From a virus: DNA of 64,000 bases. The translations under genes were made by a program, and so were the position numbers. The notes under the pieces were generated by a model, which worked only from the letters and a program-made list of their open reading frames with translations, did no database searches and was not told where the DNA came from. This document shows, in pieces, positions 34,501 through 53,125 of the stretch; within the stretch, counting starts at the first letter, position 1; every line of letters begins with the position of its first letter. The stretch lies in the IMG/VR virus record IMGVR_UViG_3300028197_000962, positions 36,190-100,189 of that record; one strand, given 5' to 3'.

Positions 34501-37500
34501 TCCAAATCCAACTTGATTGATTTTCACAAATTCGCCATCAACTTTTAGTAAGTCTCCACCAATGAATGAAGTTATACCAGAAAGTCTCATAAATTCTCCA
34601 CCAAAAGACATTTCCTCAACCAAAGCGTGCTCAACGTTGCCAGGAATAACGGGATCTTGAATATTGTTGTCAAGAGCAACAATACACTTGGTGTTTTGAT
34701 CTTGTGATAAGAATTGATGTATGGTTCCAATACCAGAAGTTGTTAGATTTAAATAATTTCCAACCGTCGATGAAAGTGCTTTTGATGGTGTTTCAGCAAG
34801 ACGAATTGATTTGTCATCAACTTTAATAGCGTACACATACTCAGGAAGTTTATCAGTGCTTCCATATCCAGCAATCGTTGTGGTTTTAATTCCAATTGAT
34901 GATGTCGTTCCAGAACCAGTTGGGTTATACTGCAATCTTTCACCAGATGCAAAGAAGTGATTTGGCAGTAAAATTAAATCTTCATCGGTATCAACAACCA
35001 AAGGATTACTGGCATCAAAGTCCTTACCAAAGATGCTAAATCCATCATGAGTTAACTCAAATGCTCTCTTAACATCTGCTTGTGTATTTGTATAAGATCC
35101 TCTAAAACTTTCAACTTTGGTGTCAAAAAGATTTAATTGGAAAAGATCATCAACACCACCCTTGGTTTCAGAAGCAGAAGTAATAAGAGTTTTGACTCTT
35201 ACATTTGTAAGAGGTGGCGCAACATAAATTACGTTATAGTTATTGCCATCAACAATAGCGGTAATAGTGCCAATACCTGAATTTTCAAGAATATTATCAT
35301 CCTCAATATTACCATATTGTGATTCATAGATGATTTTAGAACTATCGATCATGTAGATACCTTCAAGTAACTCATATCGATCATTAGTAACATCATGAAT
35401 GTTAATAAGGATATGAGCAGCTTCTGATTTATCAGTGCTATTACCAAAAGTGGCAATAGTAGTAATACCAGGAGATCCTGCTGATGGAATATCTGAATAT
35501 TGTGCTTGAAGATCACCAGTGGTTAGGTTGATTGTACCAATACCAAGAGTAGATACTCCACCTAAGAATTGTTGAGTAAAGATATTAAAACTAATACCAG
35601 TTCCAACTACACCTGCCTGAGGAGTTGCATTGAGATAATAAACACCACCAGAAACGTAAGAACTAAACGTTGCAATACCATTAATATCTGCTGCTACGGT
35701 GCTTTTATCTATATTTGACATATTGGCATACTCAATACCATATGTTAAATTATTATTGTGAAGTGAGTTGATGTTTAAAACTTCATAGTTAGACCCAGCA
35801 CTCATCTGCACTTGGAACTTATGACCAGCATCATATTGCGAAACTGGAATAGAGAGAATATTAACTGCTGTCGTAACACCAGGGTTAATCTTACTTCCTT
35901 TTGAAGCTACCTCAACAATATCACCAACAGTGTGAATACCAACCAATGTAGAAATACCAACAGCATGATGAATATCTCTGTCTACATTATAGACTAGTCC
36001 ACGAAGTTCAAAATCATTTGTGCCATAATCATTTGGATAAAATAACAGTTGACCTTCACTACCATTAACAACAAAATCAAAATATCCATTTAAGTCTTTT
36101 ATGCCATCCGTTATAGCATACTCTTGGATATATCCATTACCACCATCATCGACCATAAGTTCGACGATTTCCATTCTTCTAGTATCGATAAATTGCTTAT
36201 CGTTGGTTAAGATAAAATACTTTCTAAAACGAGTTCCTGAAAGTGCAAAAGTATCGACAATTTCAAATCTGGTTGCTCTTGGAATATTATTAAATTGATC
36301 AGATATGTTGTCAATTTTTAACACTCTATTGCCAACAGACTCTTCAAAATCTGCAATTGGAATGTTTCTTGTTATAATTTCATCAGAAAGGAAAGACCCG
36401 GAGATAAGTTTTGAATTTTCAGAAACAAAATCAAAGTCGTATCTACAATATGTTTCTAATTGAGTAATTAAGTCTACAAATAACTCAAGACCACTACTAG
36501 ATACCGATGCCTTATTGAAAGTTTCATCCCTAGATTCAATTTGTAAATCAGCAAATTTCTTAAATCCACCAGTATGATTCATGGAAGAAACAATATCATT
36601 CCAAGTATCATATGCAATTTGTGATTTTAGAGAATATGAGAAATATTGATAATAATCACTATCAATTATTCTTTGAGAATTTACACTTGGTTTACCAGTA
36701 TTTTTCTGCCACCCCAAAATAAGTTCTTCGACACCAACAATATCATAGAAAGAATTTACGTTAATCTTTTCAGACACTTTACCTATTGTCCCAGAACCAA
36801 GACCTCTTACAATATCACCAACAAGAACTTCTTTGATAACATTAACTTTTAGAATTTTATTGGAATTGTCCCAAGATGATACTTTTCCATTTTTTGATTC
36901 TAAGACATTTGTAATTACAATATCTTCATTGATAGAGAAGTTGTTTTTTACGAGATTTGGGGCAAAAATTGGGAAATCTTCAAAGGGAATAATTCTTCCA
37001 GAAGATTTCGTAGTTACATATGTTCCGGGATTGGTTACAGTAGAATCTAACTTATAAGTTACAGATCCAATACCACCAATATTCTCATCGACATTAGTAA
37101 CCTCAAAGAACTTGAAATTATAATCTGGAGAGTTATAACCACTTCCTTCTGATGAAATACCAATACCTTCAATGAATACTTTTTTACCAACTGAGAATGG
37201 GAAAGATGTAGATGTTGAGAATCCAATATTTAATTGAATAGTAACTTCTTTTGTAACTGTATTGAATCCAACAGTATTGATACCAACACCATTGGAGTTA
37301 TTGACAGTAATGATATTAGGAGCAACATCAGAAAGATTCTTAGCATTTTCCCTGATATTAATCTTGGAAATAGAACCGTTTTTAACTTCTGCTTGAAGAG
37401 ATACATTCTCAACTTTTTTGTTGGTGAATGCATCAATAACAACTAAATTAGGTTCAATATTATATCCATTGCCACCAGAAGAAATTCCAATACTACCAAA

Positions 37501-46523: not shown

Positions 46524-47136
46524 CGGTATCTCCGAGTCTACCCCATCGGATTCCATTTTCAACTTGATAATATTCCGTGGAGACCTTGAAATCGGGTGTA
46601 AGCGGCGTTTCCGGGGTGATTGATAGGTCATAAATTCTTGTTCTATTGTTTGGATATAATGCATACTGCCCATTTTCTAATTCAATGCAGTTATGTGACT
46701 TGTGTTCTTGTGGAATCTCACTTACATTGGTATCAATTATATCGTGATCAGGGTGGTAGTTGTCCAAAGTAAACAAATACTCACCTTTCAAGTTACCAAA
46801 GTGTCGTGTGCGGACTTCAAAGTCCATAGATCCGATAAATTGCTTCTCAATACAGCGGACTCCATAGTCCATACAATTCCAAAATTGTAAATTTGGTAGA
46901 TCTAAATCGGGATCTGGTGTCTTTGGTTCTGATACAAAGGCACTGATGGGCAACTTATCAAACATTGCACCATATTCGGGTAGGTAGGTCTCAAAATAAA
47001 AAGCGCGTCCGGGGATGCTTTTAGCAGTCACCCAAACGCCCTCTACAAACTCACCATACCCGTCCTTCAAATCCCTTAGATATTCTTTGCGAACCCACAC
47101 TTTCTGTGCAGGGAGATTGATGACGAGTTGACTCAT
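46459..47136 (-). CDS. Conserved baseplate-locus protein (gp53 position)
   Basis: A 225-residue protein starting MSQLVINLPAQKVWVRKEYL, with a compact N-terminal domain (GVWVTAKSIPGRAFYFETYL, MFDKLPISAFV) and an acidic Asp/His-rich middle. I recognise this as a conserved cyanophage protein upstream of gp25. In T4 the nearby wedge gene is gp53 (196 residues), so functional equivalence is possible, but I see no clear gp53 signature. The start overlaps the previous stop (TAATG), and a late promoter lies 56 nt upstream inside the previous gene. Confidence 0.83.
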   Translation of the reverse strand: MSQLVINLPAQKVWVRKEYLRDLKDGYGEFVEGVWVTAKSIPGRAFYFETYLPEYGAMFDKLPISAFVSEPKTPDPDLDLPNLQFWNCMDYGVRCIEKQFIGSMDFEVRTRHFGNLKGEYLFTLDNYHPDHDIIDTNVSEIPQEHKSHNCIELENGQYALYPNNRTRIYDLSITPETPLTPDFKVSTEYYQVENGIRWGRLGDTDEYFWETPSESRNSGIGSTNI

Positions 47137-48701: not shown

Positions 48702-48822
48702 TCGCGATCTGGGTTCGTTGTAGGTTAGGGTAGTTAGCGTTTTTATATACGCCCCTACGCGCCACGACGCGATATCATCAACCGCGCCCTAACTGCTGTC
48801 TCTAAGTGTCAATGAGTGACAC
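48702..48822 (-). other. Structured GC-rich leader or small RNA candidate
   Basis: This 120-nt non-coding stretch downstream of a perfect promoter is markedly GC-richer than its surroundings and full of complementary segments: GTGTCA/TGACAC (48806-48811 with 48817-48822) at the expected 5' end of the transcript; GTTAGGG/CCCTAAC (48724-48730 with 48787-48793) closing a roughly 56-nt domain; and GCGT/ACGC (48737-48752) inside it. No ORF with a credible start occurs. It may be a 5' leader of the cupin operon or an independent phage RNA. Confidence 0.5.
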
Positions 48823-48827
48823 TGTGT

Positions 48828-48856
48828 ATTATAACATTTTTCAGAGAATCTGTCAA
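48828..48856 (-). promoter_or_regulatory. Consensus sigma-70-type promoter
   Basis: On the minus strand TTGACA (48851-48856), 17-nt spacer, TATAAT (48828-48833): a perfect host-type promoter. It lies just after the stop of the 62-residue gene and reads into the structured leader and then the cupin, 65-residue and glycosyltransferase-like genes. Confidence 0.88.
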
Positions 48857-48860
48857 TCGA

Positions 48861-49049
48861 TTAGAGATATGCTGCTTCCCAGAGTTCTTCTACATTTTCT
48901 GACAAATCTTCCACAGTCACTGTCAAGTTCTCTCCGCCACCAATATCAAAGACCTTCTGAAAGTCTATCTGATGAACATCAAAGTCCGCAAAGACTTCGA
49001 AGTCTAATGTGACACGGATCTGCTGCTTTTCTGCGTGGCTAGTGTTCAT
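48861..49049 (-). CDS. Small hypothetical (62 aa)
   Basis: A 62-residue acidic protein (QQIRVTLDFEVFADFDVHQ, NLTVTVEDLSENVEELWEAA) with beta-strand-rich halves. It is the only convincing gene in the non-coding stretch between 48641 and 49324. A perfect TTGACA-N17-TATAAT promoter ends 25 nt before its ATG. A second promoter starts at its 3' end. I recognise similar short proteins in cyanophages; no function is known. Confidence 0.72.
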   Translation of the reverse strand: MNTSHAEKQQIRVTLDFEVFADFDVHQIDFQKVFDIGGGENLTVTVEDLSENVEELWEAAYL

Positions 49050-49073: not shown

Positions 49074-49102
49074 ATTATATAATAAATTTCCAATACTGTC
49101 AA
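49074..49102 (-). promoter_or_regulatory. Consensus sigma-70-type promoter
   Basis: On the minus strand TTGACA (49097-49102), 17-nt spacer, TATAAT (49074-49079), again a perfect match with optimal spacing. It drives the 62-residue gene and would act early with unmodified host RNA polymerase. Confidence 0.9.
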
Positions 49103-49213
49103 GTGGTTTGTGTGGGTCTCAGGAAAAAATCGGCGGTGGTGTTGACAAAACTCTCTCCTCATGATACGCTCGCTAAGATCACAACACCTCAGCACATTTA
49201 CAAGGCATTAATA

Positions 49214-49261
49214 ACACTTTTCCACACCTATTAGACACTTTTCCACAACGATTGTGGATAA
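49214..49261. other. Cluster of three DnaA boxes (origin candidate)
   Basis: Two perfect copies of the box TTTTCCACA (49218-49226, 49239-49247) lie in the same orientation within a 13-bp direct repeat spaced 21 bp apart (two helical turns). A third box in the opposite orientation, TGTGGATAA (49253-49261), is the complement of TTATCCACA. All three fit the bacterial DnaA consensus TTWTNCACA, and TTTTCCACA is the form known from cyanobacteria. An AT-rich stretch (49262-49320) follows, as next to an unwinding element. The segment is non-coding. Confidence 0.65.
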
Positions 49262-49280
49262 CTTATAAAACAGCGACATA

Positions 49281-49288
49281 TATTTATA
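49281..49288 (-). promoter_or_regulatory. TATAAATA octamer beside the DnaA-box cluster
   Basis: A perfect late-promoter octamer on the minus strand, 20 nt from the third DnaA box and reading into it. No gene start follows within 230 nt, so it could give an origin-type transcript or be a chance match in an AT-rich stretch. Confidence 0.35.
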
Positions 49289-49324
49289 ATACCATTTAAA
49301 ACGTTATTTTAAGGTAAAACAGCA

Positions 49325-49489
49325 CTAAAACGCCAAATATACGTCATAATTGTTCTTATCTGGCACCATAGTCTTGATAACATGTAGTGCAGCATCTTCC
49401 CCAATCACAGTAACCTCTTGACGGGAAACATAACCACGTTTCTTATGCTTCTTCCATACGATTGTATAACGATTCTTTGTCTGTGTCAT
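49325..49489 (-). CDS. Small hypothetical (54 aa)
   Basis: A basic 54-residue protein (MTQTKNRYTIVWKKHKKRGY, EVTVIGEDAALHVIKTMVPD). The internal ATG at 49489 is chosen; an upstream in-frame ATG at 49513 would deepen the overlap with the preceding gene, which is already 47 nt. It is the last gene of a run of six small genes starting at 50628. No family recognised. Confidence 0.65.
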   Translation of the reverse strand: MTQTKNRYTIVWKKHKKRGYVSRQEVTVIGEDAALHVIKTMVPDKNNYDVYLAF

Positions 49490-49715
49490 GGACGGATTTG
49501 CGAGACTTGACATAAGTGAGTTCAGACCATTGATGAGGATAACAGAGTAATAAGCAATGAATATTCTTATGACGTTCTCTCTTCGTATAGGTACACTTTG
49601 GTTTAGGTTTTACATATAGTTCAATCGTTATGTATTGACTATCGACAAAATATATCCACCCTTTAAACTGTTTCCATATTACATAATCATTGACCTGTGG
49701 TTGATACTTAGCCAT
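49443..49715 (-). CDS. Conserved cyanophage hypothetical (90 aa)
   Basis: A 90-residue protein with an N-terminal SH3-like beta pattern (YQPQVNDYVIWKQFKGWIYF, YITIELYVKPKPKCTYT) and a histidine/tyrosine-rich middle (HKNIHCLLLCYPHQWSEL). I know similar short proteins from cyanophages. The ATG overlaps the upstream gene by 8 nt. Role unknown. Confidence 0.75.
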   Translation of the reverse strand: MAKYQPQVNDYVIWKQFKGWIYFVDSQYITIELYVKPKPKCTYTKRERHKNIHCLLLCYPHQWSELTYVKSRKSVHDTDKESLYNRMEEA

Positions 49716-52852: not shown

Positions 52853-53125
52853 TCAACCCACACATGCCATGGGAGCATACTCAGAGCGAGGCATCTTGTC
52901 AACGTTGAAACCAGTAACCTCAGCACCTTTGGCAATACGTGAAGCAATCTCATGTTTGAAGTCAATAGCACCAATAGTGCTGTATGAGTTCTGATTACTG
53001 CCACGGAAATAAACACGTTTGACGAAACGACGAACGGTAACTTTCATTCCTTTGATGTCATCAGACTCAGCGATGAATGCCTCAGGGAAGAAATCAACGA
53101 CGACGGCAGAGTTTGAAATTTGCAT
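52853..53125 (-). CDS. Hypothetical protein (90 aa), first gene of operon
   Basis: A 90-residue basic protein (MQISNSAVVVDFFPEAFIAE, MKVTVRRFVKRVYFRGSNQN, AEVTGFNVDKMPRSEYAPMA). An AAAGGA site lies about 8-9 nt before the ATG within the operon-leader repeat. The upstream promoter carries the CAGTT-N8-TGTCCACT element. Mixed beta pattern, no family recognised; perhaps a nucleic-acid-binding early protein, judging only from charge. Confidence 0.72.
   Translation of the reverse strand: MQISNSAVVVDFFPEAFIAESDDIKGMKVTVRRFVKRVYFRGSNQNSYSTIGAIDFKHEIASRIAKGAEVTGFNVDKMPRSEYAPMACVG

Follow-up and report, generated by a model that had tools for sequence, protein, structure and literature searches.

A cassette of DnaA boxes in T4-like cyanophages and its possible place in an RNA-primed replication origin resembling T4 oriE

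Bacteriophage T4 is the classic phage that initiates replication without DnaA. At T4 oriE an early-mode (sigma70) promoter fires into the origin, the primer RNA is antisense to gene 5, evenly spaced repeats that are not DnaA boxes lie within the gene 5 coding DNA, the small early genes repEA and repEB stand alongside, and the whole lies 1.7 kb 5' of gene 6. At oriF and oriG an adenine+thymine-rich (A+T-rich) unwinding element lies downstream of the promoter; oriF, directly 3' of gene 25, has a sense uvsY transcript from a MotA-dependent middle promoter and no protein-site cassette. At bacterial oriC and the origins of iteron plasmids, phased DnaA boxes adjoin an A+T-rich unwinding region with short A+T-rich repeats, and in E. 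coli the clustered DnaA boxes of datA titrate DnaA. A literature search returned nothing direct on cyanophage DnaA boxes or origins and no mapped origin of a T4-like cyanophage; for Syn9 a single theta origin has been predicted (PMC2984593). We analysed a 64,000-nucleotide stretch of virus DNA (IMG/VR record IMGVR_UViG_3300028197_000962, positions 36,190 to 100,189; "the window" below), in which a first-pass annotation had pointed to three DnaA boxes in an intergenic region, and we describe here the element to which these boxes belong and its counterparts in other T4-like cyanophages.

The three boxes are perfect and of the cyanobacterial type, the form TTTTCCACA having been recognized as cyanobacterial in the first-pass annotation in agreement with PMC4674748. 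They are packed into 48 bp between the minus-strand genes 48861-49049 and 49325-49513, a region with no plausible open reading frame (ORF), and the first two lie within a 13-bp direct repeat, ACACTTTTCCACA, whose copies start at 49214 and 49235, an offset of 21 bp or two helical turns. These positions and this spacing, the non-coding setting and an A+T-rich stretch beside the boxes had all been claimed before and were confirmed in the sequence. What had been overlooked is a plus-strand promoter (P-plus) directed toward the boxes, the conserved leader that follows it, and the fact that DnaA boxes are one of several interchangeable cassettes. The parts of the element are as follows.

49142..49170, plus strand: P-plus, TTGACA-17-TACGCT with an extended -10 TG, antisense to the genes; candidate primer promoter
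49171..49201, plus strand: leader CGCTAAGATCACAACACCTCAGCACATTTAC, conserved in the alignment of relatives
49218-49226, plus strand: DnaA box no. 1, TTTTCCACA, inside repeat copy 1 (49214..49226)
49239-49247, plus strand: DnaA box no. 2, TTTTCCACA, inside repeat copy 2 (49235..49247)
49253-49261, inverted: DnaA box no. 3, reading TGTGGATAA on the plus and TTATCCACA on the minus strand, 14 bp from box 2
49262..49320, no strand: A+T-rich block, candidate DNA unwinding element, 78% A+T against 62% for the window
49281..49288, minus strand: T4-type late promoter motif TATAAATA, within the A+T-rich block and reading back across the boxes

The box cluster is not an effect of base composition, since the consensus TTWTNCACA is uncommon in the window (5 sites, against 11.9 expected by shuffling) and three boxes in 48 bp did not arise once when the 64 kb were dinucleotide-shuffled 1000 times. 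No other direct box pair occurs anywhere in the 100,189-bp record. Stability reaches its local minimum in the 60-mer that begins at 49258; of all 60-mers in the window, just 0.4% are lower.

When the 281-bp gap of the window was used as a blastn query, non-coding homologues were found in P-SSM2, P-SSM5, SynMITS9220M01, S-SM2, Sf-CH5, S-BM3 and single-cell virus contigs, all in a shared setting, among small early genes close to gp25; a similarity to an Aeromonas phage was judged to be a low-complexity A+T chance match. Aligned by eye, the homologues have a constant 5' block, TTGACA-N17/18-TA....CGCTWAGATCAC, a variable middle and a constant A+T-rich 3' block, and the order of parts is a sigma70-type promoter (TTGACA-N17-TA), a leader CGCTWAGATCACAAGACC, a repeat cassette and the A+T-rich block. 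A scan of IMG/VR with the 5'-block pattern, combined with a search for gp25, yielded 102 distinct elements (L050, a chance match, was removed), a set that is biased toward elements with strong promoters because it was collected by pattern. In the 300 bp past the -35, TTWTCCACA is 158 times as dense as in the remainder of the same contigs. No conserved ORF was found downstream of P-plus across the elements, and the leader, considered as a coding or leader-peptide ORF, was rejected as such by eye (read on the minus strand, the W of CTWAG gives a stop codon in some cases and a sense codon in others). In several loci (L254 9061-9230, which is S-SKS1, and L059, L067, L129, L148 and L151) a leader unit of about 20-35 bp, CTSAGCACATTTATAAG-like, stands in 2-5 tandem copies before the cassette.

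We also surveyed a panel of 17 complete cyanomyovirus genomes, our own pick of well-known isolates, for close pairs, defined as two TTWTCCACA boxes, direct or inverted, within 30 bp. Such pairs are present in 10 of the 17 (S-SM2, S-BM3, Syn9, S-PM2, S-SM1, S-ShM2, Syn1, P-SSM7, S-SSM5 and S-SKS1), and every one of them sits at the element locus and nowhere else in its genome. A reversed-pattern control gave no close pair in any of the 17 isolate genomes, and there is none in T4, KVP40 or the podoviruses P-SSP7 and Syn5. Conservation of the boxes at the syntenic gap in relatives had been named beforehand as a refutation test, and its outcome strongly favours function. The element always lies on the strand opposite to gp25 and 5' of it, 2.7-9 kb away overall; the distance is 2.9-8.7 kb among the isolates and roughly 2.8 kb for the window's clade. 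It is located at 19.3 kb in S-PM2, 58.1 kb in S-SM2 and 52.6 kb in Syn9. The -35/17-nucleotide spacer/TA frame (TTGNNN-N17-TA) is retained by the elements and by 11 further isolates; P-plus of Syn9 has a weak -35. In P-SSM7 (46602-46631) and S-ShM2 (53068-53092) an extra box pair lies about 0.25-0.6 kb from the main pair.

The variable middle falls into classes, which we could assign for 97 elements; the boundaries of classes P, G and unassigned were set by regular expressions plus inspection. About 50 of the 97 carry DnaA boxes (class D), about 15 carry ATTCTCAATAA sites, mostly as two direct copies and one inverted copy like the DnaA boxes (class F), about 14, among them P-SSM2 and Sf-CH5, carry 11-bp repeats or iterons (class P), a few carry GATACGAATT palindromes (class G), and the remainder are unassigned. 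By script, 45 elements had DnaA boxes only, 19 had F sites only and none had both; the script-called F elements L074, L088, L111 and L118 look like 11-bp-repeat elements flanked by TTGAGAAT, which leaves the true number of F elements at about 15. Strict DnaA boxes are absent from the F, P and G loci across about 240 kb. Exchange of the cassette is most directly visible in pairs of relatives in which the cassette alone differs: L031 (class P) and L033 (class D) share 98% identity over a 540-bp flank and 90% over the promoter, and L058 (class G) and L148 (class D) share 88% over the flank and 100% over the promoter. The F-class site ATTCTCAATAA is identical over 11 bp (11/11) to the core of the FurA box of Anabaena, whose consensus is AAATAAATTCTCAATAAAT (PMC4005646); the F sites, which belong to relatives and not to the window, are thus a match to a cyanobacterial Fur box and putative Fur-binding sites. 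The slot therefore appears to accommodate binding sites for more than one protein, and two of these proteins are known regulators of the host. A PhoB/RpaB-like response regulator was considered as the binder of the 11-bp repeats and was set aside, the HLR1 and Pho consensus sequences fitting poorly. In the 5' part of one element, L069, there are GTGTTACA repeats that resemble response-regulator (HLR1-like) half-sites, a single case. Late promoter motifs of the TATAAATA type, known from PMC2984593, occur in 26 of the 97 elements against 3% expected.

Among 35 non-redundant DnaA cassettes, boxes of the same orientation are spaced by 11-12, 20-22 or 42 bp and boxes of opposite orientation by 12-14, 22-25 or 31-35 bp. 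Their phases are concentrated at a period of 10.5 bp (R=0.90 for the same and 0.83 for opposite orientation), with nominal p values of 3e-9 and 1e-6 that are optimistic because the cassettes are related; such helical phasing is what cooperative binding on one face of the DNA would predict. By nearest-neighbour stability, 48 of 80 loci have their overall least stable 60-mer within the element, and random 230-bp stretches, taken as a control, have a median stability rank of 74 per mille. The A+T-rich block is weakly self-similar at 10-12 bp (TTTTTAATACN type), in which it resembles the A+T-rich repeats of known origins. Further inverted DnaA-box pairs lie beyond the A+T-rich block in L015, L043, L072 and L114.

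Since a promoter is directed into phased sites and a least-stable block, with no ORF, at one locus per genome and with several parallels to oriE, we consider it somewhat probable that the boxes are the initiator-binding cassette of an oriE-like RNA-primed origin in T4-like cyanophages, read by host DnaA. Early in infection host sigma70 RNA polymerase would initiate at P-plus and, running antisense to the genes around it, transcribe the leader, the boxes and the A+T-rich block. Host DnaA would occupy the helically phased TTTTCCACA boxes and help to melt the neighbouring A+T-rich block; the P-plus transcript, retained as an R-loop or cut, would serve as primer for the first leading strand, and the T4-type replisome of the phage itself would then take over. 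We infer DnaA binding to the boxes, the primer role of the P-plus transcript and the start of replication at the element from the sequence.

The likeness to oriE is drawn from layout rather than from sequence homology. On the cyanophage side, where it is read from sequence only, a sigma70-type promoter is directed into the element, the position and strand of P-plus match those of an antisense primer promoter, the evenly spaced repeats are phased boxes or 11-bp repeats with sequences unlike those of T4, the element lies 5' of the adjacent baseplate genes gp25 and gp6, and small early genes stand alongside. It differs from oriE in being intergenic, in its strong A+T-rich block and in its exchangeable cassette. 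The T4 repeats (L260 3403-3570) may themselves partly mirror a protein repeat of gene 5, because they have a 24-bp period inside its coding sequence. With oriF and oriG the element shares an A+T-rich block downstream of a promoter, here a candidate unwinding element, and with oriF also the proximity to gene 25, although it lies 5' rather than 3' of that gene. The phased boxes beside an A+T-rich region, in the cyanobacterial form, recall oriC and iteron origins, from which the element differs in having only 2-4 boxes, a dedicated antisense promoter and boxes that can be exchanged, in a phage that has its own replisome and no Rep gene.

GC skew, which the first-pass annotation had proposed as a check, gave a divided answer. 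Of 7 genomes, several show an inflection close to the element or directly at it (in P-SSM2 at 66.0 kb, with the element at 65.96 kb), and the detrended cumulative skew peaks at the P-SSM2 element and no more than about 10 kb from the element in S-SM2, Syn9 and Sf-CH5. The sign of the inflection, however, is opposite to that of a textbook origin, and the global extremum lies elsewhere in S-PM2 and SynMITS9220M01. Several other observations also weigh against an origin read by DnaA: P-plus has a weak -10 in S-PM2, Syn1, S-SM1 and their relatives, a match to the sites of a transcription regulator (Fur), as in class F, is unusual at an origin, and the T4 oriE area that we tested ranks at 58 per mille and is not especially unstable. 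Finally, about half of the elements carry no DnaA boxes, so DnaA cannot be universally required. The earlier suggestion of a DnaA-dependent origin is partly supported: the anatomy (promoter, phased sites, A+T-rich block, single locus and an orientation antisense to the genes as at oriE) favours an origin. It is possible, and we put it forward tentatively, that there is one origin whose cassette has been swapped between lineages, the first initiation being licensed by DnaA in about half of the elements and by Fur or an 11-bp-repeat-binding protein in others.

Two features adjoin the element on its minus-strand side.

49074..49102, minus strand: P-minus, divergent early-type promoter TTGACA-17-TATAAT, 12/12 match to the consensus
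48861..49049, minus strand: small acidic early gene of 62 amino acids, PHROG 12516 (function unknown), the element's immediate neighbour

A counterpart of P-minus, which is read as the promoter of the small gene, is found in 71 of 86 elements, against 5.4% of random stretches, and a PHROG 12516 gene immediately adjoins 73 of 95 elements, in all cassette classes; its relatives beside the element are conserved acidic proteins of 50-70 amino acids. The AlphaFold model of the 62-residue neighbour (predicted template modelling score 0.53) has little regular structure and is uninformative. A further 12/12 sigma70 promoter (48828-48856, minus strand), with TG preceding the -10, lies just 3' of the small gene and is adjoined by a terminator-like hairpin (48805-48823, plus strand); the two strong early promoters that the first-pass annotation had placed near the boxes are this one and P-minus, and both are borne out.

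A DnaA-regulated control site had also been suggested, and in a wider form this is a real rival to an origin: the region would be one of transcription control, without an origin, in which regulators from the host (DnaA for the class of the window, Fur or others elsewhere) set the activity of P-minus and P-plus and so couple early phage transcription to host physiology. DnaA does act as a transcription factor in bacteria, P-minus and the PHROG 12516 gene accompany most elements, and the Fur match in particular makes this a serious rival. The cassette, however, comes after P-plus and is over 100 bp away from P-minus, P-plus has no conserved ORF downstream, and the extreme A+T-rich block beside the cassette is left unexplained. 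The family PHROG 12516 is moreover absent from 8 of the 10 box-bearing isolates, so the cassette is not tied to this gene and no single target gene explains its conservation; regulation of the small neighbour as the sole role is weakened accordingly. On balance we regard transcription control without an origin as unlikely, and note that the two readings are compatible, because regulators can license an origin.

The remaining proposals fare worse. The first-pass annotation had also offered a DnaA trap, by which phage copies would titrate host DnaA and halt replication of the host chromosome in the manner of datA, and the clustering of perfect boxes whose number climbs with phage copy number would suit it; there are only 2-4 boxes per genome, however, they are embedded between a conserved promoter and leader and the A+T-rich block, and near-identical relatives replace them by sites that are not for DnaA, all of which makes a trap highly improbable. 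A structured regulatory RNA, in which the plus-strand transcript is functional and inverted boxes form a hairpin stem, could draw on certain inverted box pairs that are able to form a 7-bp hairpin and on a mean fold z of -1.6 for class D. The fold z of the window is -0.86, there is no Rfam match, and the hairpin is not conserved, because about 20 of 50 DnaA-class elements hold boxes of the same orientation only; nor would such an RNA explain the exact host DnaA box sequence or its direct copies. We rejected this reading as very unlikely.

Few ocean viruses are as abundant as the T4-like cyanophages. If the boxes do belong to an RNA-primed origin, then in a large part of the T4 family the origin has become linked to an initiator or regulator of the host, and the candidate site is narrowed to a short stretch of about 200 bp. 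If cassettes are indeed swapped at one origin, they would make the start of phage replication depend on a host state of the phage's choosing, be it the cell cycle, iron/redox status or some other signal, and cassette exchange supplies natural variants for learning which host signals these phages heed.
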